Origin: Astropecten irregularis
Lineage: Eukaryota > Echinodermata > Asteroidea > Paxillosida > Astropectinidae
Direction of reading: 5' to 3'
DNA length: 64,000 bases
NCBI GenBank assembly: GCA_963971285.1
Contig: OZ020254.1
Location: 682,001-746,000, forward strand
The notes under the pieces were generated by a model. It worked only from the letters and a program-made list of their open reading frames with translations, ran no database searches and was not told the origin of the DNA. How positions within the stretch are numbered: position 1 is the stretch's first letter; each line of letters begins with the position of its first letter. Below, one piece after another: positions 42,671-63,768 of the stretch. A program made the translations under genes and the position numbers.

Positions 42671-43131
42671 TTAAAGGTAATACAGTACAGGATTGGTAAC
42701 ATACCCAAACAGAAATGTTCATAGATGTACATATAACTTTCAGGATATATGAAGATGGTGCTGGTAGAAACATACCGTTAAAGGTACAGTACAGGATTGG
42801 TAACATACCCAAACAGAAATGTTCATAGATGTACGTATAACTTTCAGGATATATGAAGATGGTGCTGGTAGAAACATACCGTTATAATATGAATTTATCC
42901 AGAAATTTGTAAAACAATTAGCGGAAATAGTTTTGATCTCGGGGTAAGATCAAAACCATTCTTTATGTTTTATAAGACAAATTGAGTCGGGTTTTTACTA
43001 TTTTCTCGGGACACAGAATGTCCGATTAAGCTCAAATTTTCACAGACTTATTATTTCATTTCATGCCGGATCAGTAGACAAAGTGTGCGTGCTGTTCTGT
43101 GACCTTTACAAATCATGTACTATACCTTTAA
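42671..43131 (+). mobile_element. TTAA-flanked MITE, copy 3, with a partial tandem duplication
   Basis: A full-length element (42778-43131) starts TTAAAGGTACAGTACAGG and ends GTACTATACCTTTAA. Immediately before it, 42671-42777 repeats the first 107 bp almost exactly, including GGATTGGTAACATACCCAAA and GAAGATGGTGCTGGTAGAAA. The two units differ by only a few bases, which implies a recent duplication. Confidence 0.75.
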
Positions 43132-54123: not shown

Positions 54124-56499
54124 TTAGTTTTTCCTGGATCTGGTTGTCCTCCTGGTCACAGCCGGGGAAGGCTTGGCCGTCTTCTTGGCTGACTGAGCAG
54201 CTGGTTTCTTGGGAGTCTTGGGCTTAGAGGCTGCTCTACCCCTGGTCACTCGAGCTTTCTTTGGAGTGGGTGTATTGACAACTAGGATCTCTACAGGTGC
54301 TGCTTTGGCAGCTTTGGTGGCCTTGGGCTTGCTGGGCTTTGGGGTGGCGGCGGCTGCGGCCACCTTAACGGCTCCTCTGCGCGTCCTCTTCGGACTGGGT
54401 TCCACAGCAACAGGAGTTTCAACCTTTTTGGTCGCCGATCTCTTCTTTGCCGGTGTTTTCTTGATTTGTGACTTGGCTGACTTTGCAGGGGAAGCAGCTT
54501 TCCTGCTTCGTCCTGACCTGGTTGCCTTGGGGGAGGCTGCTGGTGCAACCTTCTTTTCTGTGGCCCCTTTCTTGGCAGCTGAGGCCTTGGCTGGAGCCTT
54601 CTTGGGTGCTGTCTTGGGTTTCGCTGGTGTTTTGGCAGGCGTTTCCTTGACGGCTGAAACCTTTGCGGCTGTCTTCTTCGCAGCTGCCTTGGGTTGAGCC
54701 GGAGAAGCAGCAGCTTTCCTTGCTCGCCCTGATCGGGTCTTCTTGGGACTGGGCACAACAGGAACAGTCTCTTCAACCTTGGGCTTCTTTGACGCAGGCT
54801 CCTTCTTGGCTGGCGTGGCCTTCTTTGTTGGTGTCTTCTCTTGCTTGGTTGCAGTGGCCGTCTTCCTTCCCCTCTTTGCTGGTGCTGGTGTTTTGGCGGG
54901 AGATACTATTGTTACGGTTTTCTTGGGTGCTGGTGATGCCAACTCCTTTTTGGATCGCCCGCGGGTCTTCTTTGGAGATGGTTCAGTGCTCGTCGGTGCA
55001 GCAACTGCTTTTCGGCCTCTTGTTGGCTTCTTTGGGGTCTTTGCTTTAGCAGGTGACGGAGTCTTAGCCTTCTTGGCAGCAGCTGCTTTGCGTTGACTTT
55101 TCACCGGCGTTTTTGCTTTGGGAGCAGCGGGACTTACAGCCTGCTTTTTGGCATCAGGCTCCTGATCGACTGGCTCTGTGGCTGCTCTCTTGCTGCGGGT
55201 TTGTTTCTTGACTGGAGCAGGTGATGCCTTTTCTGCTTGTGCCTTTTTAGCAGGTGTCTTGGGCTTCTTCTCTGGGGCTTTCTTTGCAGCAGTTCCTCTC
55301 TTGGTTCTTTTTGGCTTTACGGGACTGGGCGATGCTACCTCTGATTCCACAATGGGCGCCTCAAGTTTTTTAGCCTTGGGAGCTGATTTAGGAGCAGGAG
55401 TAGTGACTTTCATCCTCTTAGCAGCTGGAGCTGGGGACGGTGAAGCCTTACGTTTTGCTGCTGCCTTAGGACTGGATTTAGCAGGGGTTGGCACACGGTG
55501 CGGTGAGACAAACAGGCTAGGTACTCCTTCAAAGTCCTCATACGGGTCAATTGATTTCGGCGTTGACATAAGCTGCTTCAAGCCTGCCATCCTTGGTGTC
55601 TTAGGTGATGGCTTTGGTGTTTTCAGCAAACGAGCAATTCCAGACAGCTTAGGAGACTTGGCTGGTGCTTTAACCACTTTACCTGTCTTCACTGGCGTCT
55701 TGCTCTCTTTCAGCGGAGAAACGAACTTCTCAGACTTTCTCTTTTCTGTCTGCACCTTGGCTGGAGTCTTGGCCTTGGCTGGTGTCTGGGCCTTAGTTGG
55801 CGTCTTAGCCTTGGCTGGTGTCTGGGCCTTTGCTTTCACAACCGTCCCTGTCTTCACTGGAGTCTTGCTGTCTTTCAGAGGAGATACAAACTTCTCCGAC
55901 AACCTTGCATCTGCTTTGGCCTTGGCTGGTGTCTTGGCCTTGGCTGGTGTCTTGGCCTTGGCTGGTGTCTTTGCCTTGGCTGGGGTCTTGGCCTTTGCTT
56001 TCACAACCTTCCCTGTCTTCACTGGAGTCTTGCTGTCTTTCAGCGGTGAAACAAACTTCTCGGACAATCTCTTACCTGATGCTTTCACAGCAGCAAGAGC
56101 ACTCACTGTGACCGAGGTCTTCATGGGCGTCTGCTTGGCCACCAGCGGAGAGACCATCTTGTAGGGAGATGTGCTTTTCCGTGGACTTGGCACCCATGAT
56201 GACGAGAGGGGGGACACTGACATGAATCCAGGTCCTTCCGGAGTGGGCATGTCAAGAGTGGAATCCATTTGAGACTTTCTAGCTCCCTTCTTCGGTGAGG
56301 GGGTCTTCATCAGGTCGGCCAGGCCCGTGAAGCTGGTGTCGGCCGCGGTTGTTTTCTTGGTTGGAGGCTTCTTGTAAGGAGTCTTCCTGCCCTTTTTGGT
56401 GCGGACCGGTGTCTTGGCAGTGCGCTGGGACCGTCCAATGAGGATTGTTGCAGGAGATGAGGCATGTCCAGTGCTACCAACACCATAAACCCTCTTGCC
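54124..56499 (-). CDS. MKI67: Ki-67 terminal exon: repeats and basic C-terminus
   Basis: The exon of 2376 nt (791 residues and stop) extends 63 codons upstream of its first methionine to the acceptor TTTTAATCTTCAG|GGCAAG. It has GKRVYGVGSTGHASSPATIL, then TSFTGLADLMKTPSPKKG, three copies of a unit with SEKFVSPLKDSKTPVKTG, then MAGLKQLMSTP and FEGVPSLFVSP. The remaining 500 residues are K/A/P/T-rich with AT-hook-like pieces (TRSGRARKA, TRGRAASKPKTPKK) and end RRTTRSRKN. The long plus-strand ORFs across it are shadows of low-complexity coding. Confidence 0.93.
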   Translation of the reverse strand, partial: GKRVYGVGSTGHASSPATILIGRSQRTAKTPVRTKKGRKTPYKKPPTKKTTAADTSFTGLADLMKTPSPKKGARKSQMDSTLDMPTPEGPGFMSVSPLSSSWVPSPRKSTSPYKMVSPLVAKQTPMKTSVTVSALAAVKASGKRLSEKFVSPLKDSKTPVKTGKVVKAKAKTPAKAKTPAKAKTPAKAKTPAKAKADARLSEKFVSPLKDSKTPVKTGTVVKAKAQTPAKAKTPTKAQTPAKAKTPAKVQTEKRKSEKFVSPLKESKTPVKTGKVVKAPAKSPKLSGIARLLKTPKPSPKTPRMAGLKQLMSTPKSIDPYEDFEGVPSLFVSPHRVPTPAKSSPKAAAKRKASPSPAPAAKRMKVTTPAPKSAPKAKKLEAPIVESEVASPSPVKPKRTKRGTAAKKAPEKKPKTPAKKAQAEKASPAPVKKQTRSKRAATEPVDQEPDAKKQAVSPAAPKAKTPVKSQRKAAAAKKAKTPSPAKAKTPKKPTRGRKAVAAPTSTEPSPKKTRGRSKKELASPAPKKTVTIVSPAKTPAPAKRGRKTATATKQEKTPTKKATPAKKEPASKKPKVEETVPVVPSPKKTRSGRARKAAASPAQPKAAAKKTAAKVSAVKETPAKTPAKPKTAPKKAPAKASAAKKGATEKKVAPAASPKATRSGRSRKAASPAKSAKSQIKKTPAKKRSATKKVETPVAVEPSPKRTRRGAVKVAAAAATPKPSKPKATKAAKAAPVEILVVNTPTPKKARVTRGRAASKPKTPKKPAAQSAKKTAKPSPAVTRRTTRSRKN

Positions 56500-59400
56500 C
56501 TGAAGATTAAAAAATAAACACCATATAGCATTTGAGTAAGAGTTGCATATTCAAGTTAACCCCCCATCCGCTAGGGAAGCATCTGTAGCAGCATCGATGT
56601 GGTTATTATTTTCATTGAATTGTGTCAAATGGAAGCCGAATGAGAGGTTCAATGAAACTCCAAAAATGGGCACATCCTGGCGAAACTACAATTTGCATTT
56701 GAATGGATCGTTTCTTCCAAGCAGAGCAATTCAATACACTTCAAAGACAACAAACGCTGCATTTTGTATTTTTCATACATGTACAAACAAAATACGTGGA
56801 AAATATCACTGATTAAAACAACTTGTCAAAATTTGCTTTTAGCATCTATTTTAAGATCACTGCTAAAATTTTGCTGTTGAAAATGCTCAACTCTGAATAA
56901 TTGATTTCTCAACTTAAGCATTGACAATGACTCTTTAATTTCCACAAGATAAGGGTTGAGGGGTGACTCAATAGGGTTATTTGTGTGTGTCCAAAAAAAA
57001 AAAAGATATCTTCATATGGTAATCCAGTCAGACTCTTAATTTTTTCTGCAAGGGAGTTTTTAGAGTGATTTAAAAAAATCTCAGCCACAAGCACGATAAA
57101 AATGATGACATACCTTTGGAGTCTTAGCTTTTGATGATACAACCCTGGCCTTGGCACTTTTGGATGTCTTCAGGGCCCTGGAAACAAGTAACTTGGATGC
57201 AGCCGTCGGCTTGGAGGCTCCCTTCTTGACTATGTCTGCCCACCTCATGGGGCCTGGGGCCTTGGGTCGGGCTGGAGTCTTGGCTTTAGGGGTCTTGGCT
57301 CTGGGGGTCTTAGACTTGGGGGTCTTGGCTTTGGGGGTCTTGGCTTTGGGCGTCTTGGCCTTGGGTGTCTTTGGTGTTCCTTTAGCTGGTGTTGGAGATT
57401 CGACGACAATCGTCACTGCCTTCTTTGCAGCAGGTGTTTTCGGCTGAGGAGTTTTGACTTTGCTTGCCGGAGTCTTCGCTTTGGGCGTGGAAACCTTTGA
57501 GACAGGGGTGGCACTCTTTGATGCTGGCGAATTCTTTGCGATTGGTGTCTTTGCCTTCTTGGCAGTAGGAGTCTTAGCCTTGGGTGTCTGAGGCTTCTGG
57601 GGCGTCGCTGGCTTCACTGTCTTCAGGGCAACACCCTGTGGGGATGGAATCAATCATTTTGAAGTTTAAAAATGTGTAAATTGTATCCGAACATTATCGC
57701 ATTTGCCCACTTCTAAGTAGAGAGATCTTGCGACTTGACTCTGAAATTTTTTGTTCATTTTAATTTCCTTATCTCACATAAATTTGGCAAAAAAAGAGAG
57801 ATGTATCAGCTTTTTGAAGACAATATTCTTGTCATGACAAAAAAAATGGAATGAAAGAACAAAGCAACTAAACGTGTTTGCAAAAAAAAAATGCAAATAC
57901 ATCAGAGAGAGGAGAACAGCTGCAAGCACTGGATAAATTTCATTCCGATTGCAAAAGCTGAATTTTGCTTTCAATACTGTTCATGGATTAAATATTGAAT
58001 ATTTTGAACAAAGTAAATACAGCAACACTAACCTTTTCAATCTCTGTCTTCAGGGCAGGTGCAATTTTCTTGGTCTGAGTACGGCCTTTCATCTCCTCTG
58101 CTGCAGCAACAATGTCCTTCTTCAGCGGAGTACCCATCTTTTTTGGAGTGGCAGCTTTGGGCTTTGATGCAGCTGCTTTGGCTATCTCTTTCCTCAAGGG
58201 CGTGCCCATTTTCTTGGGTGTGGCCTTCTTGGGCAGAGCAGCTGCAGCCTGTTTGATGCTCTCCTTCATGGGCGTTGACATCTTCTTGGGCGTGGCTTTC
58301 TTTGGCAGGGCTTCAGCAGCCTTCTTGATGTCGTCTTTCAGAGGGGTTGGCATCTTCTTTGGAGAAGGTCGGGCTCTTTCCTTCGCTGCCTGAACAATGG
58401 CTTTCTTCAAGGGTGTTGCAAGCTTCTTTTTAAGATCCGATTTGGGAGTTGACTTTGAAACTCTACCCTGCATGACTGCCCCTTTCTTGACTGATGATGG
58501 AGTGCTGAACATCTCAGGGAGGCCTGTGAAGCTCTCATCCATCAGCTTGGTGGAGGGCTTGCTAACTCTTGGAGTCTTCTTCCCAGGTGTTGTTGAAGAT
58601 ACTGGGGTAGATGGCTTAGGAGATGCAGCAGACTTTGCCATGTTTTCAGCTTTGGACGGGGATGGAGGCTTTACACTAAGTTTAATCTTAATAGGAGTTT
58701 TCTTGACAGACTTTGGAGACTTCTTGGGTGTCTTGGCCGGAGACTTCTTGGGTGTCTTGGAAGCCTTAGGACTTGGTTTAGGAGATTTCTTTGATGGCGT
58801 CTCTTTCTTGGATGTGGATGGGGATGTAGAAGGAGACTTTACTGCAGGCTTAGCTGGAGTTACGGCTGCCAGCTTAGCAGGAGACTTGGCTGGTGACTTC
58901 GCAGGGGATTTGGCCGGTGACTTAGCTGGAGATTTGGCTGGTGACTTCGCAGGAGATTTGGCTGGTGACTTCGCGGGAGATTTAGCTGGTGACTTCGCGG
59001 GAGATTTAGCCGGTGACTTCGCGGGAGATTTAGCTGGTGACTTAGCTGCAGATTTAGCTGGCGACTTCGCGGGAGATTTAGCCGGTGACTTCGCGGGAGA
59101 TTTAGCCGGCGATTTGGATGGTGACTTAGCTGGAGATTTAGCCGGTGACTTAGCTGGAGATTTGGCCGGTGACTTCGCAGGAGATTTCGCCGGTGACTTT
59201 GCGGGAGATTTAGCTGATGATTTAGCAGGGGATTTAGCTGGTGTCTGGGCAGGAGATTTACCTGGTGACTTAGCAGGGGACCCTTTAGATTTGGTGCCCT
59301 TTGGTGAATCTTCTGCTGATTCAGGGATGCTCGTGATGGCCACTGAGTGTCGCTTCCTGATGAGACCGGCAACCTTTGGACTTGCAGTTTCTCCGCTGAA

Positions 59401-62400
59401 TGAACGCCTACTGTTCGGAGTCGCACCCCTACGCAGCGGCGTGAGAGGCGGCAGGCGCTTGTCAAATCGCTCCGGACTGAGCTGGGGACCGAAGGACACA
59501 CGTTTGCGTTTGGCGCTCGGTGCAATGTCATCTGTAGATCGTCGTTTCTGGCCTGGTGTCGGGGTTTTCTTGGCTGTTGACATATAACAAACCCAATAAA
59601 ATAAATGAATCATTACAATCCACAGATTTTTTATCATCAAATAATTGCTCATAAATATCACTTCGTTTTTTAGCGTCACTTCTAGTCCGTGGGCCGTGAG
59701 GCCAAATTCGCTTTAGTTTTTGAGTTACGTGACCATCATCACCGAATTTGTTCCCATTCGGCATGGATGTAGATCTGACATTACTGAACAAGAATTGACT
59801 TGTTCCCACGTCCAATTCGTGTTCACTAAAGAGAAATTTGCGATAGAAAATCGTCAAATTTTACGTACAGAAAAAACATAAGAATAAACAGCGCCCTCAA
59901 TCGGTAGAAAGTAATTATCTACATAATAATACTTTAGGAACTGCACACCCCACGGGCCGCGGCCCGTGCTAATTTTATTCCCGATGTAAAACCCTTAACA
60001 TGATTGGAAACTGATCAAACTTCAACGTCATTATTTCTAGGTACATTTTAATTGTTTTAATTATGGGAAAATTAGGTGAATGCTGGATGAAAAATATGAC
60101 ACATGTTTTTTAAGATGTTTCTCCCAGCAAATTTCTAAATCATGATGAGGAAGTAACAAACTGCTGCAAATTGCTCATCAACTAATTGAGCCTAAAATAA
60201 TCACGGACCGAGTTGACCTGAAACTTTCTTGGGAATGCCTGACGTTTTGAACCTACCAGAATATTTAATCTAAATAAAATTACGATAAAAATATTTGATG
60301 ACAAAGAAAACAAAACACACACTGAATGATCTCACATGATTTGGTCCAAAATGCTTATTATAAGATGTATATTTCTTTTTTAGAAAACACTAACAGAAAT
60401 ATCTTGTCACGCATGATGAAAACTACAGTATTCTTTATTATTTTAAAAGAAAAGAATTGACTAAGTTTTTCAATAATATTCTCTTGAGACTCATATGGCC
60501 GATTAAGCTTAACCTTTCACAGGGGTATTATTTCATGTGTACCCAGTGAAAGTGACAGTGTGAAGTGTAAGTACATGTACTCTTTTTTACCCTTTGCAAT
60601 CATATATTTTACTTTTCACCCTACATGCAGCTCATTGCAAAAGCAAACTTAGCCAATGTATCCTAAGAAAATATATTATTTGGGGTATATTTAGTGTTAT
60701 GAGCAAGATAATGTTAATATTATAATTGTTTATAATATACAATGTTTACATCCTTCGTTGGAATTTCAGTCATATTTTTATTTAATTCTTTATCATAAAT
60801 GCAATCTTTGTTTAGTGGTAAAGACTATTGTATGGAGCCCATCACAAAATGAAGTGGTGAAATCTCTGTTTTCGGAACAAATTAAAAGTCATAATAATAA
60901 TTGAACAAAATGCTATAAATTGTACAAGTGTAGGGCCCGTCTTTTGTGTAAGACCATTGTTTTGCATAATGAATTATCATTGTTCATGGTGGAAATTCTA
61001 CATTTCAAAACAAAACAGTCATTAGAATAATTTCCCAGTGTTTTCAAAAACCGACTCTCATACATAACAATGCCAAATTGCGACAGCAGTTTGCAGGGAG
61101 CAACATCTTCAGAAACATGTGTCATATTTTCCATTCAGGCATTCACCTAACTATCTTTTAATTAAAACGACAATTAAAATGTACCTAGAAATAATGACGT
61201 TGAAGTTTGATCAGTTTCCAACCATGTTAAGGGTTTTACATCGGGAATAAAATTAGCACGGGCCGCGGCCCGTGGGGTATGCAGTTCCTATAGTATTATT
61301 ATGTAGATAATTACTTTCTACCGATTGAGGGCGCTGTTTATTCTTATGTTTTTTCTGTACGTAAAATTTGACGATTTTCTATCGCAAATTTCTCTTTAGT
61401 GAACACAAATTGGACGTGGGAACAAGTCAATTCTTGTTCAGTAATGTCAGATCTACATCCATGCCAAGTGGGAACAAATTCGGTGATGATGGTCACGAAA
61501 CGAGCGAATAAAAGGCCACGGCCCACGGACTATTCCAACAATCCATACAAATTACGTTCAAGGAATTCCATCGTACATAAAATGCGTATCAAAATTTGGT
61601 TTACATTATGGAGACTTTAAGGGGATGGGTAAAGTTAAAACTTTTAATCTGCACTCACCTTTTGGCGTTGCTCGTGGTGGAGTCTTAGCTGCAGATTTGG
61701 GTGGTGTCTTGGCCTTGGGCGGAGTCTTGGATGCAGCCTTGGGCGAGACCAGCTCATCCTCCTCCTTCAGCGGGGCAGAGACACGCCTCAGCTGGCCGAT
61801 GCTCCTCTTCAGTGACTTGGAGGAACTCCCTGGCATCCTGGGACTATCAACAACGGTTGCTTTCTGCGGGTGAAAGAAGACAGTTCCATGGACTTGAAAT
61901 GATATGCCCAAGAGCAGAGACAGAGTTGACATGGCATTCACTGTGAGACTCATTCTAATGTGGGCATTATCATTTATGTCATATAAGCTGGCGGATTCAG
62001 ACATGCAAATGCTACAGACATGCTGAGCAAAGGAATGACAAAGGCTTCAAAGAGAGACTGGTCACTCTGACCATTCCAAAACATGAAACGGGTCTGCATA
62101 TTCGCTTGTTATGTTAACTTGGGGAATAAAGAATGGCACGCTTGTTGACGTTTGGCAACCACAAACCACAACAGGTCATGGGACACAATTAGTCTATTCA
62201 AACCACTCAACATCATTAAATGTTTTCCCATAGTAAAACAAAGAGAACAACTGATGTTAAGCATGAAACTACGTCAAAGCTAGACATGATGGTCTTGGAA
62301 TTGATGCAAGATACAGCAAGAAAATTAGAACTTGGATCAGAAAGTTCCATTTGACCGTCTAAATATTATCAGGAACCTTTCACATACCTTGACAGATCCG

Positions 62401-63768
62401 CTCAATCTGCGCTGACCCTTCTTGGAAGAAGTTGGTGTGGATCGTGCTGGCGTTCCAGTCTTTGCTTCTGCTTTGACCGGCGTGGTGCTACTGACAGGCT
62501 TTTGCTGGGATGCCTTTGGCGAGGTCGCCGGAGACTTCTTGGCAGCGACAGGGGTCGTCTTGGGAGTGGTGGCTGCCTTCTTTGCTGGCAGAGTGCCCTC
62601 CTCTGTCCCTTTAGCTGCTGCCTTGGCCGGAGTTCGCACGGGGCTCTTGGCGGCTGACTTGGGAGTGGCCTTCTTTGGAGTGGCCTTCTTTGCAGAGGGC
62701 GACGGGGATGCTGCTTTCTTCGCAGGAGTCTTGACGGCTGGACTCTTTGCTTTGGCTTTTCCAGGGCTCTTGGCAGGGGTCTTCTTGGGTGCTTTAAGGA
62801 ATGAAAACAATAATACAATTTGAAAAACAAACAATTACAAACCCCAACAAACAAACAAACAGACAGAATTCTCTTCCCGAATCAGCTTAAATGATTATAT
62901 CAACATGTTTTGTTTGTTTTCTCTTGGGCGATTCACAATCACCTCCAGCAATTTTTACAAATCATCCAAAAGCAGTTGTCCTCACAGTCAGATGCAAAAC
63001 AGGGTGCAACTGCTGACACTTACTTTTCACCTTGCTTCCACTGGTAGAAGACACAACTGGAATTTGCACCGACGACGTCTCGGCCTTGCCTACAGACTGA
63101 CGGTTGGCGTGTCCAGGTGGAAACTCAAACCTGGCGAGGTAAAATTTGTGACAATCAGAAAGATCCCAAAGGCAACTCGCATCCCAATACACCTAGCCGT
63201 TGGTACTAACCTTAATCACAGTGCGTCAACTTTGTTTTCGAAAGGGCAAAGCAGTTTCATTTGGGTTTTTTTGTTGACCAAAAGGAACTATTATAGATCT
63301 GTTAGAAGCCCCTACAAAAATCAAGCCTTGCCTCTCTCCAGAACAGATAAAAACCAAGGGCAATTTGCAAGGGGTGACAAGCACAATTATTTCCAGTGCA
63401 CAGAAAAAAGGCACTACCACAATATAATTGTTTTACTTAATAGGAAGGTCTATTTAGCACAATAATGTGTGGGAAATAAAAATAAAAATGGGGTCTATTT
63501 CATCAAACTCATCATCAATCGTAGGACTAATGATGCATTGCAGCCCCTCATAGAATTTGTAGGATACGATGGGTTATCCTTTGTTACTTGAGTTATGATC
63601 GACCGTAGGGCTTCGGTTTTTTTGTAGTTTTTTATCTGCACACCATACGTACCTGAATGAACGATCGATTATGGTGAAGACATCTTTATGTTTCAGAGCC
63701 ACCTCACTTGTTAGTGTCTTCCCATTTATCCGCGTGGGGTTCACCGTACTCAGATTAGTCAGTGTAAT
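54124..63768 (-). CDS. MKI67: Ki-67 (MKI67) type perichromosomal protein gene, 3' seven exons (partial)
   Basis: This is the gene-level entry. Exons 63768-63653, 63130-63024, 62791-62388, 61863-61659, 59573-58033, 57635-57114 and 56499-54124 total 5271 nt and join in phase as 1756 residues plus stop. In order the product shows: the end of an FHA domain (NPTRINGKTL ... IIDRSFR, residues 1-39); an S/T-P-K-rich linker; RVSFGPQLSPERFDKRLP followed by PLTPLRRGATP (about 302-330), the PP1-docking motif of vertebrate Ki-67 and Repo-Man; about 35 SPAK tetrapeptides; short repeats; motifs like SFTGLPEMFSTP that recall the vertebrate Ki-67 repeat; and a very basic tail ending RRTTRSRKN, like the chromatin-binding LR region. 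Ki-67 coats mitotic chromosomes and recruits PP1. Exons encoding the FHA start lie beyond 64000. Repo-Man (CDCA2) shares the PP1 motif but I recall no FHA domain in it, which favours Ki-67. Confidence 0.92.
55671..56072 (-). repeat. Coding tandem triplication of about 165 bp
   Basis: Three copies of RLSEKFVSPLKDSKTPVKTG-like sequence lie at about 56072-56002, 55912-55838 and 55745-55671, separated by variable KTPAKA runs. The copies are highly similar in DNA as well as protein, which implies recent expansion by unequal exchange. Confidence 0.9.
56500..57113 (-). other. Ki-67 intron (between the KTPKA exon and the terminal exon)
   Basis: A 614-bp AT-rich intron. The ORFs inside it have no domain. 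I see no repeat apart from A/T runs. Confidence 0.8.
57114..57635 (-). CDS. MKI67: Ki-67 exon: KTPKAKTPKA-rich
   Basis: The exon of 522 nt (174 codons, phase 0 at both ends) starts GVALKTVKPATPQKPQTPKA. It contains about ten KTPKA-type repeats (near 57255-57370) and a less repetitive stretch PGPMRWADIVKKGASKPTAA. The acceptor is CCATCCCCACAG|GGTGTT and the donor is CCAAAG|GTATGTC. Because both phases are 0, the exon could be skipped or duplicated without a frame change. Confidence 0.9.
57636..58032 (-). other. Ki-67 intron (after the SPAK exon)
   Basis: A 397-bp AT-rich intron. I see nothing else in it. Confidence 0.8.
58033..59573 (-). CDS. MKI67: Ki-67 exon: PP1-docking motif and SPAK array
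   Basis: This exon of 1541 nt holds the main regulatory region. It opens AKKTPTPGQKRRSTDDIAPS, then RVSF (59502-59491) and the conserved extension to TPLRRGATP (to 59416). After a linker comes the SPAK array (59285-58871). Then follow lysine-rich KTPKKSPAKTPKKSPK, the repeat-like SFTGLPEMFSTP (about 58500-58545), and about six copies of a 25-residue unit with the core TPKKMxTPLKxxI (58440-58036). The acceptor is TATGTCAACAG|CCAAG and the donor is GAAAAG|GTTAGTG. Confidence 0.95.
58036..58440 (-). repeat. Coding repeat, about six 25-residue TPLK units
   Basis: Units with about 75-bp spacing read KKLATPLKKAIVQAA, KKMPTPLKDDIKKAA, KKMSTPMKESIKQAA, KKMGTPLRKEIAKAA, KKMGTPLKKDIVAAA and a degenerate KKIAPALKTEIEK. 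Each pairs a basic T-P site with a short amphipathic helix-like stretch. I do not recognise this as a named domain. Confidence 0.85.
58871..59285 (-). repeat. Coding tandem array, about 35 SPAK tetrapeptides
   Basis: The DNA has a 12/24-bp period (for example GGTGACTTCGCGGGAGATTT on the plus strand) and encodes an almost uninterrupted run of SPAK. A few variants occur (SPGK, SPAQ, TPAK, SSAK, SPSK, SAAK). Each S-P-x-K fits the full CDK consensus. The plus-strand ORF over it is a shadow. Confidence 0.95.
59416..59502 (-). other. PP1-docking motif (RVxF plus Ki-67/Repo-Man extension)
   Basis: The encoded stretch RVSFGPQLSPERFDKRLP continues with PLTPLRRGATP. Compared from memory with human Ki-67, the RVSF box, the F-D, the L-P-P and the T-P-L-x-R-G all coincide in spacing. 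This is the short motif by which Ki-67 and Repo-Man select PP1-gamma for dephosphorylation at mitotic exit. A serine sits inside RVSF, as in vertebrates, which would allow phosphorylation to block PP1 binding. Confidence 0.93.
59685..61530. mobile_element. Transposon-like element with about 445-bp terminal inverted repeats, inside a Ki-67 intron
   Basis: The left arm (59685-60130) and right arm (61091-61530) are inverted copies at high identity; in one 68-bp stretch I count two differences. Ends read GTCCGTGGGCCGTG and its complement, each next to a TA dinucleotide, as expected for a TA target duplication (Tc1/mariner-like habit). Each arm carries the perfect palindrome CACGGGCCGCGGCCCGTG (59951-59968, 61257-61274). 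The roughly 960-bp middle has no transposase ORF. It holds a hammerhead-like repeat (60146-60262) and a fragment resembling the TTAA MITE family (about 60420-60560). Confidence 0.8.
60146..60262 (-). repeat. Diverged copy of the hammerhead-like dispersed repeat
   Basis: On the plus strand it reads AAGTAACAAACTGCTGCAAA, TTGCTCATCA, then after an insertion GACCTGAAACTTTCTTGGGA, ATGCCTGACGTTTTGAACCT. It aligns with the 13364-13477 copy but the hairpin is degraded. Confidence 0.5.
61659..61863 (-). CDS. MKI67: Ki-67 exon: linker with SPRMPGSSSKSLKRS
   Basis: The exon of 205 nt starts KATVVDSPRMPGSSSKSLKR and ends in KTPPKSAAKTPPRATPK plus one base. The acceptor is TTTCACCCGCAG|AAAGC and the donor is CCAAAAG|GTGAGTG. 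The phase 1 end fits the next exon exactly across the 2.1 kb intron that holds the transposon-like element. Confidence 0.88.
61864..62387 (-). other. Ki-67 intron (before the SPRMPG exon)
   Basis: A 524-bp intron with no gene or repeat that I can see. Confidence 0.75.
62388..62791 (-). CDS. MKI67: Ki-67 exon: S/T-P-K-rich linker
   Basis: The exon of 404 nt encodes a disordered basic region rich in TPAK, SPGK and ATPKK units. Many are CDK-type S/T-P-x-K sites. The acceptor is TTCCTTAAAG|CACCC and the donor is TCTGTCAAG|GTATGTG. It starts by completing the codon from the previous exon and ends in phase 0. Confidence 0.88.
63024..63130 (-). CDS. MKI67: Ki-67 exon: end of FHA and linker
   Basis: The exon of 107 nt encodes FEFPPGHANRQSVGKAETSS and onward to SGSKVK. 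Its first base completes arginine (DRSFR). The acceptor is TTACCTCGCCAG|GTTTGAG and the donor is GTGAAAA|GTAAGTG. It ends in phase 1. Confidence 0.88.
63131..63652 (-). other. Ki-67 intron containing a small dispersed repeat
   Basis: A 522-bp intron inside the FHA-coding region. Its part at 63518-63615 (AATCGTAGGACTAATGATGC, ATTGCAGCCCC, TACGATGGGTTATCC) is the same repeat as 44752-44840 in opposite orientation. Confidence 0.7.
63653..63768 (-). CDS. MKI67: Ki-67 exon: C-terminal half of the FHA domain
   Basis: The exon of 116 nt encodes ITLTNLSTVNPTRINGKTLT, then SEVALKHKDVFTIIDRSF and two bases. The N-P-T-x-x-N-G pattern and the closing IIDRSFR strand match the human Ki-67 FHA domain as I recall it. 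The acceptor is TTTCTCATTCAG|ATTACA and the donor is TTCAG|GTACGT. The FHA glycine-arginine and serine-x-x-histidine motifs would be in an upstream exon outside the window. Confidence 0.9.

Follow-up and report, generated by a model that had tools for sequence, protein, structure and literature searches.

A probable Ki-67 orthologue of a sea star with an FHA domain and a PP1-docking motif in one gene model

Does an invertebrate deuterostome possess a Ki-67 gene of vertebrate layout, with an FHA domain and a PP1-docking motif in the same protein, and what would such a gene imply for the relationship between Ki-67 and Repo-Man (CDCA2)? The question is raised by a 64,000-nucleotide stretch of the Astropecten irregularis genome (C18:682001-746000 within 475.7 Mb; hereafter the window), in which a first-pass annotation recognized a Ki-67 gene and from which it argued that the PP1 switch predates vertebrates and belongs to the FHA-bearing form. 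We confirm that the gene is real and find it apparently intact; judged from its sequence, it very probably represents an echinoderm orthologue of Ki-67 (MKI67) and appears functional, and one copy of it was found.

Within the window the gene comprises seven exons on the minus strand (54124-63768), joined by GT-AG junctions in matching phases into a frame of 1756 codons that lacks internal stops and closes in TAA (hereafter the window part). Five of them lie inside 58033-63768, the interval first assigned to the gene, and two more (57114-57635 and 54124-56499) bring the number to the seven that had been counted. Both ends of that interval were exact: the IIDRSF(R) exon begins at base 63768, and the RVSF exon ends at base 58033. 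Assembly with exons beyond 64000, which had been proposed as a check, succeeded: reading 9 kb past the window (locus L002) revealed exons 1 and 2, the former supplying the ATG and the two together completing the FHA domain. The full coding sequence has nine exons and 5445 bases and encodes 1814 amino acids. Residue numbers in the full protein are those of the window part plus 58, RVSF at 302 in the part being 360 in the whole. The exons are as follows.

65088-64997 (extended window numbering), minus strand: exon 1 of 9, with the ATG, completing the FHA domain together with exon 2, read past the window.
64278-64197 (extended window numbering), minus strand: exon 2 of 9, FHA domain, read past the window.
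63653..63768, minus strand: exon 3 of 9, second half of the FHA domain, ending IIDRSF(R); GT-AG, open frame, PDB match.
63024..63130, minus strand: exon 4 of 9, end of the FHA domain and linker; GT-AG, frame, its own match to the FHA-fragment query.
62388..62791, minus strand: exon 5 of 9, basic linker rich in K, A, P, S and T; GT-AG, frame.
61659..61863, minus strand: exon 6 of 9, basic linker; GT-AG, frame.
58033..59573, minus strand: exon 7 of 9, PP1-docking box, SPAK array and basic repeats; PF15276, E = 3.8e-14.
57114..57635, minus strand: exon 8 of 9, TPKAK repeats and RWADIVKKG block; GT-AG, frame.
54124..56499, minus strand: exon 9 of 9, GHASSPATILIG block, degenerate Ki-67-motif cores, basic C-terminal tail and TAA; GT-AG, frame.

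The RWADIVKKG block and STGHASSPATILIG presumably resemble blocks of human Ki-67.

From the window alone the second half of the FHA domain scores 17.9 bits, just under the Pfam cut-off of 20.7, and the joined exons 3 and 4 retrieve only Ki-67 FHA chains from the PDB (E<=10). With exons 1 and 2, which lie past the window, an N-terminal FHA domain of the Ki-67 type emerges, scoring 54.8 bits with Pfam FHA (E = 1.3e-14); a weaker profile, Yop-YscD_cpl, is also above its cut-off over this stretch (40.4 bits). The closest PDB entry to the complete domain is Ki-67 (2aff, E = 1.5e-31), the next distinct protein being KIF13B (2.1e-5), and 54 of the 94 aligned columns in the stretch counted are identical to the Ki-67 FHA. 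The motifs CLFGR, SKEH and NPTRING can be read, and the arginine of the glycine-arginine pair in the first, residue 31, aligns with residue 31 of 2aff_A. The upstream glycine-arginine motif anticipated for a Ki-67 gene is therefore present as CLFGR, and the suggested profile search recovered the domain whose absence had been named as grounds for abandoning the claim.

The PP1-docking box lies in exon 7.

59416..59502, minus strand: PP1 dock (residues 360-388 of the full protein), RVSF plus linker plus KiR-SLiM, FDKRLPPLTPLRRGATP, agreeing with the published motif at 13 of its 14 fixed positions.

In the passages concerned of Kumar et al. (2016, PMC5005033), the KiR-SLiM is defined as FDxxLP(P/A)N(T/S)PL(R/K)(R/K)Gx(T/S)P, its most degenerate form retrieves only Ki-67 and RepoMan from Swiss-Prot, and the dock is described as the sole stretch common to the two proteins. 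Here the single departure from this definition is L in place of N, and the next-best place for the dock motif in six frames of the 64-kb window agrees at 7 of 14 positions. The RVSF exon matches Pfam PP1_bind (PF15276) with E = 3.8e-14, and the motif occupies precisely the residues first reported for it, with RVSF at 302 and its end at 330 of the window part; its predicted conservation and spacing are borne out. The serine at the x position of RVxF makes an Aurora B-type site, and the equivalents of the Repo-Man Cdk1 sites 400, 412 and 419 are all S-P or T-P, spaced as they are in Repo-Man (these sites and the Aurora B site are taken from passages of PMC5005033). The Ki-67 crystal construct 5j28 differs in having R, M and A at the same three positions, and does not show the three Cdk1 sites of the sea-star gene. 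Canonical human Ki-67 presumably has T at the middle one. What the present analysis adds is the combination, in one FHA-bearing gene, of all three Repo-Man Cdk1 sites with the Aurora B site. The FHA match to Ki-67 (1.5e-31) and the PP1_bind match (3.8e-14) uphold the original attribution of the gene to Ki-67.

The full chain carries a net charge of +363 over 1814 residues. The window part is net positive throughout, counted in stretches of 100 residues, and 72.5% of its residues are K, A, P, S or T. The same part contains 83 SP and 93 TP sites, a total of 176 against about 55 expected by composition, and 104 of these have the form [ST]P.[KR]. When every SP/TP site is phosphorylated at -2 each by computation, the net charge of the window part falls from +362 to +10, and the fraction of its 25-residue windows that are negative rises from 2% to 43%. 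In its direction the shift agrees with the charge-block model outlined for human Ki-67 in passages of PMC9106583. Among the sites are those of a tandem array, and short cores related to the Ki-67 repeat motif occur farther along the chain.

58873..59277, minus strand: tandem array (TRF) whose encoded SPAK repeats each form a Cdk consensus, S-P-x-K.
58498..58530, minus strand: core FTGLPEMFSTP, found by pattern; 13-residue score 35, above the best of 300 shuffles (29).
56299..56331, minus strand: weak core FTGLADLMKTP, found by pattern; score 23, below the best shuffle (29).
55615..55647, minus strand: weak core LSGIARLLKTP, found by pattern; score 25, below the best shuffle (29).
55558..55590, minus strand: core MAGLKQLMSTP, found by pattern; score 32, above the best shuffle (29).
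55501..55539, minus strand: core EDFEGVPSLFVSP; score 30, barely above the best shuffle (29).

The array accounts for 28 SPAK words between residues 365 and 515 of the window part. The Ki-67 protein, searched against Pfam, gave no match to the Pfam Ki-67 repeat, and the full motif of 22 residues, the length published in the relevant passage of a review (PMC8354752), scored nowhere higher than the best of 300 shuffles. When the motif was trimmed, by our own choice, to its last 13 residues, three places surpassed the best shuffle, one by only one point; four places fit a looser pattern that was devised once those four had been seen, and 5000 shuffles contained none. The 436-residue tail has a net charge of +106. 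Since neither LR nor RL occurs after residue 1255 of the 1756 in the window part, the tail included, the leucine/arginine-rich tail signature is absent. The order of FHA domain, RVSF plus KiR-SLiM, repeat region and basic tail is that of vertebrate Ki-67, and to this extent the layout originally proposed stands, though the Pfam Ki-67 repeat and the LR-rich tail are lacking; unlike the vertebrate protein, the sea-star protein has degenerate cores only, a long SPAK array and a strongly basic character throughout.

The same features bear on where such a homologue would act. Fungal bridgin is presented as a Ki-67 homologue, with Ki67 named as its metazoan counterpart, and the passages describing it (PMC7794384) give it an FHA domain, a basic tail and a site thought by its authors to be for PP1, features that recur here; the sea-star protein might by analogy act mainly at kinetochores and not as a chromosome coat. 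Those passages also portray bridgin as a linker at the kinetochore, its middle region acidic and its PP1 site termed unconventional, whereas the present gene encodes the full Ki-67/RepoMan dock and, in place of an acidic disordered middle, a window part whose 100-residue stretches all have a positive net charge. We consider a mainly kinetochoric role very improbable.

Whether the gene might instead be the orthologue of Repo-Man turns on the docking box and on the rest of the genome. A 69-residue PDB query taken around the box retrieved two proteins only (E<=10), Repo-Man (4.7e-11 and 7.6e-9) and Ki-67 (2.9e-8), with 46.0 bits for Repo-Man 5ioh and 39.0 for 5inb against 37.1 for Ki-67 5j28, and 22/36 identities with Repo-Man against 21/36 with Ki-67. 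The comparison with MKI67 and CDCA2 that had been called for therefore succeeds in that both are matched, but the box alone is nearest to Repo-Man, with which it also shares RVxF plus KiR-SLiM and all three Cdk1 sites. In the PDB, the one collection compared, the FHA domain thus finds Ki-67 as its best match and the PP1 box finds Repo-Man. Unlike a Repo-Man gene, in which the dock would stand without an FHA domain, this gene model unites the dock with a full FHA domain of Ki-67 type. Across the 476-Mb genome a single PP1_bind match was obtained at E<=0.001, the RVSF exon itself (two first-look candidates, both scored), and an FHA-fragment query returned only two exons of the Ki-67 gene at the same threshold. 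Because the FHA domain is present and the PP1_bind match is single (E<=0.001), we reject an assignment to Repo-Man despite its slightly better box score, and hold it to be very improbable. A Repo-Man with a PP1_bind box was not detected genome-wide (E<=0.001), a strongly diverged or unassembled copy being possible. This result is as expected for a lineage older than the duplication that gave rise to Repo-Man (a derivation ascribed to Booth et al. in the passage of the review, PMC8354752).

The nine-exon model, predicted from genomic sequence, could also in principle have merged two neighbors, one gene with the FHA domain and another with the PP1 box, and a low-complexity linker between the halves would easily stay open. 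Phases and GT-AG junctions are nevertheless consistent across all nine exons, the PP1 box follows the FHA domain just as it does in human Ki-67, and the FHA half by itself already selects Ki-67; a merger is accordingly highly improbable, and FHA domain and dock sit in one gene model as first described. There is next to no chance that the gene encodes a histone-H1-like or SPKK-type DNA-binding protein with repeats that merely look like those of Ki-67, for although SPAK/TPAK repeats resemble H1 tails, the composition of the window part is of that kind (72.5% K/A/P/S/T) and the whole RVSF exon as a PDB query brings up low-complexity proteins as well (in a list of 13 sequences), the FHA and PP1-box identifications are independent of the repeats and refute such a reading for the gene as a whole, if not for the repeat tract taken alone.

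For the Ki-67 orthologue so identified, candidate partners were sought in the same genome. According to passages of PMC5005033, the preference of the dock among PP1 isoforms is due to Arg20 of PP1, a residue that forms a pair with Glu77 and a stacking contact with Phe81. A query of human PP1 gamma matched 38 places at E<=0.001. Residue 20 of PP1 was read at two of them, on contigs C8 and C28, where an exon covers it; each has the sequence VRG and hence Arg20. Further PP1-like places lie on C10 and C11, with weaker ones besides. LFEYGGF, containing Glu77 and Phe81, occurs in nearby exons on C8 and C28, which are taken to belong to the same two genes as the Arg20 exons. The presence of Arg20 at the two PP1 loci where this position could be read is likewise added here. 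The FHA-binding family of NIFK (PF12196, a 40-residue profile) gave two places in the genome, both under its cut-off, the best at 20.3 bits against a cut-off of 25 (E 0.25), and no NIFK was recognized by eye in the list of open reading frames at locus L011.

The dating proposed at the outset is right in content but not new. By the figure legend of Booth et al. (2014, PMC4032110), the PP1-region alignment of Ki-67 and Repo-Man already included Ki-67 of Ciona, Saccoglossus, Hydra and Trichoplax, the PP1 region being one that the present gene shares, and the review passage (PMC8354752) states that RVxF is conserved in all orthologues. The tie between dock and FHA-bearing form holds in the single gene model described here and was likewise anticipated: since Platynereis Ki-67, reported in 2025, has both an FHA and a PP1 domain by its text (PMC12669781), the tie extends outside deuterostomes. 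The portion of that report concerned adds that, to its authors' knowledge, no validated orthologues had been reported in other invertebrates, and a passage from the same year uses KI67 mRNA as a proliferation marker in a sea cucumber (Holothuria; PMC11925454). No sea-star Ki-67 appeared among the open-licence literature matches listed, which is weak evidence of absence. Set beside the published descriptions of invertebrate Ki-67, the present gene differs in representing another lineage and in being complete from genomic DNA.

If binding, timing, localization and coat function are carried over from human work, the very basic, mostly repetitive chain would in interphase bind chromatin and nucleolar material, and its FHA domain would bind a phosphothreonine partner. 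At mitotic entry Cdk1 would phosphorylate some of the at most 176 SP/TP sites, bringing the net charge near zero if complete, and the phosphorylated chain would become a coat on chromosomes; Aurora B and Cdk1 phosphates in the docking box would meanwhile keep PP1 off until anaphase. Upon their removal PP1 would dock through RVSF and KiR-SLiM and help to reverse mitotic phosphorylation.

An evolutionary scenario, on which our judgement is evenly divided, would have the ancestral animal Ki-67 as a single FHA-bearing PP1 scaffold with the Aurora B and three Cdk1 sites. After duplication, the FHA domain would have disappeared from Repo-Man but the Cdk1 switch been retained there, human Ki-67 would have retained the FHA domain while two or more of its three Cdk1 sites disappeared, and in the present lineage Cdk1-tunable repeats would have been rebuilt as an S-P-A-K array. 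If this is true, a complete mitotic-exit switch now split over two vertebrate proteins once resided in one gene. Sea stars are used for egg and embryo mitosis, and their gene would offer a single-gene system for testing the role of an FHA-PP1 scaffold before the vertebrate split. The conserved Cdk1 and Aurora B sites give a precise prediction, and the set of switch sites, combined with published invertebrate sequences, could show which vertebrate paralogue lost what.

The host is an echinoderm, and hence an invertebrate deuterostome as first supposed, because of the genetic codes compared it is the echinoderm one that best suits its mitochondrial contig (C168, 16335 bases). COX1 scores 503.1 bits under that code, against 499.6 under table 24, 496.6 under table 4, 495.1 under table 13 and 488.8 under table 5, and the vertebrate code puts six stops into it. 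The echinoderm code is also best for both ND5 domains and for two of the three CYTB domains, the third lying 1.0 bit below its score with tables 24 and 4. The large rRNA lies on the minus strand, and two long minus-strand frames are taken, by position, for ND2 and ND1. The gene order is presumably the asteroid one.

Elsewhere in the window, positions 1-54000 hold no convincing gene (ten open reading frames from a long list gave two sub-cut-off Pfam matches), and no tRNA was found in the window as a whole, nor any Rfam family reaching its gathering score. At 42681-42884 a 104-base unit occurs twice in tandem, the copies being 99% alike (TRF). The intron before the RVSF exon contains an inverted repeat (59724-60055 and 61170-61501; arms of 332 bases, 98% complementary, 1114 apart) that looks like a young fold-back element. 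Two further COX1 sequences were encountered in the assembly. One, at C131:32162-33484 (L006), is a 552-codon frame that is stop-free under the standard code, unlike the mitochondrial copy, and its contig may be bacterial, from an associate or a contaminant. The other, at C25:9951047-9952018 (L008), contains seven TGA codons, lies far from the contig start and is probably a nuclear copy of mitochondrial DNA.
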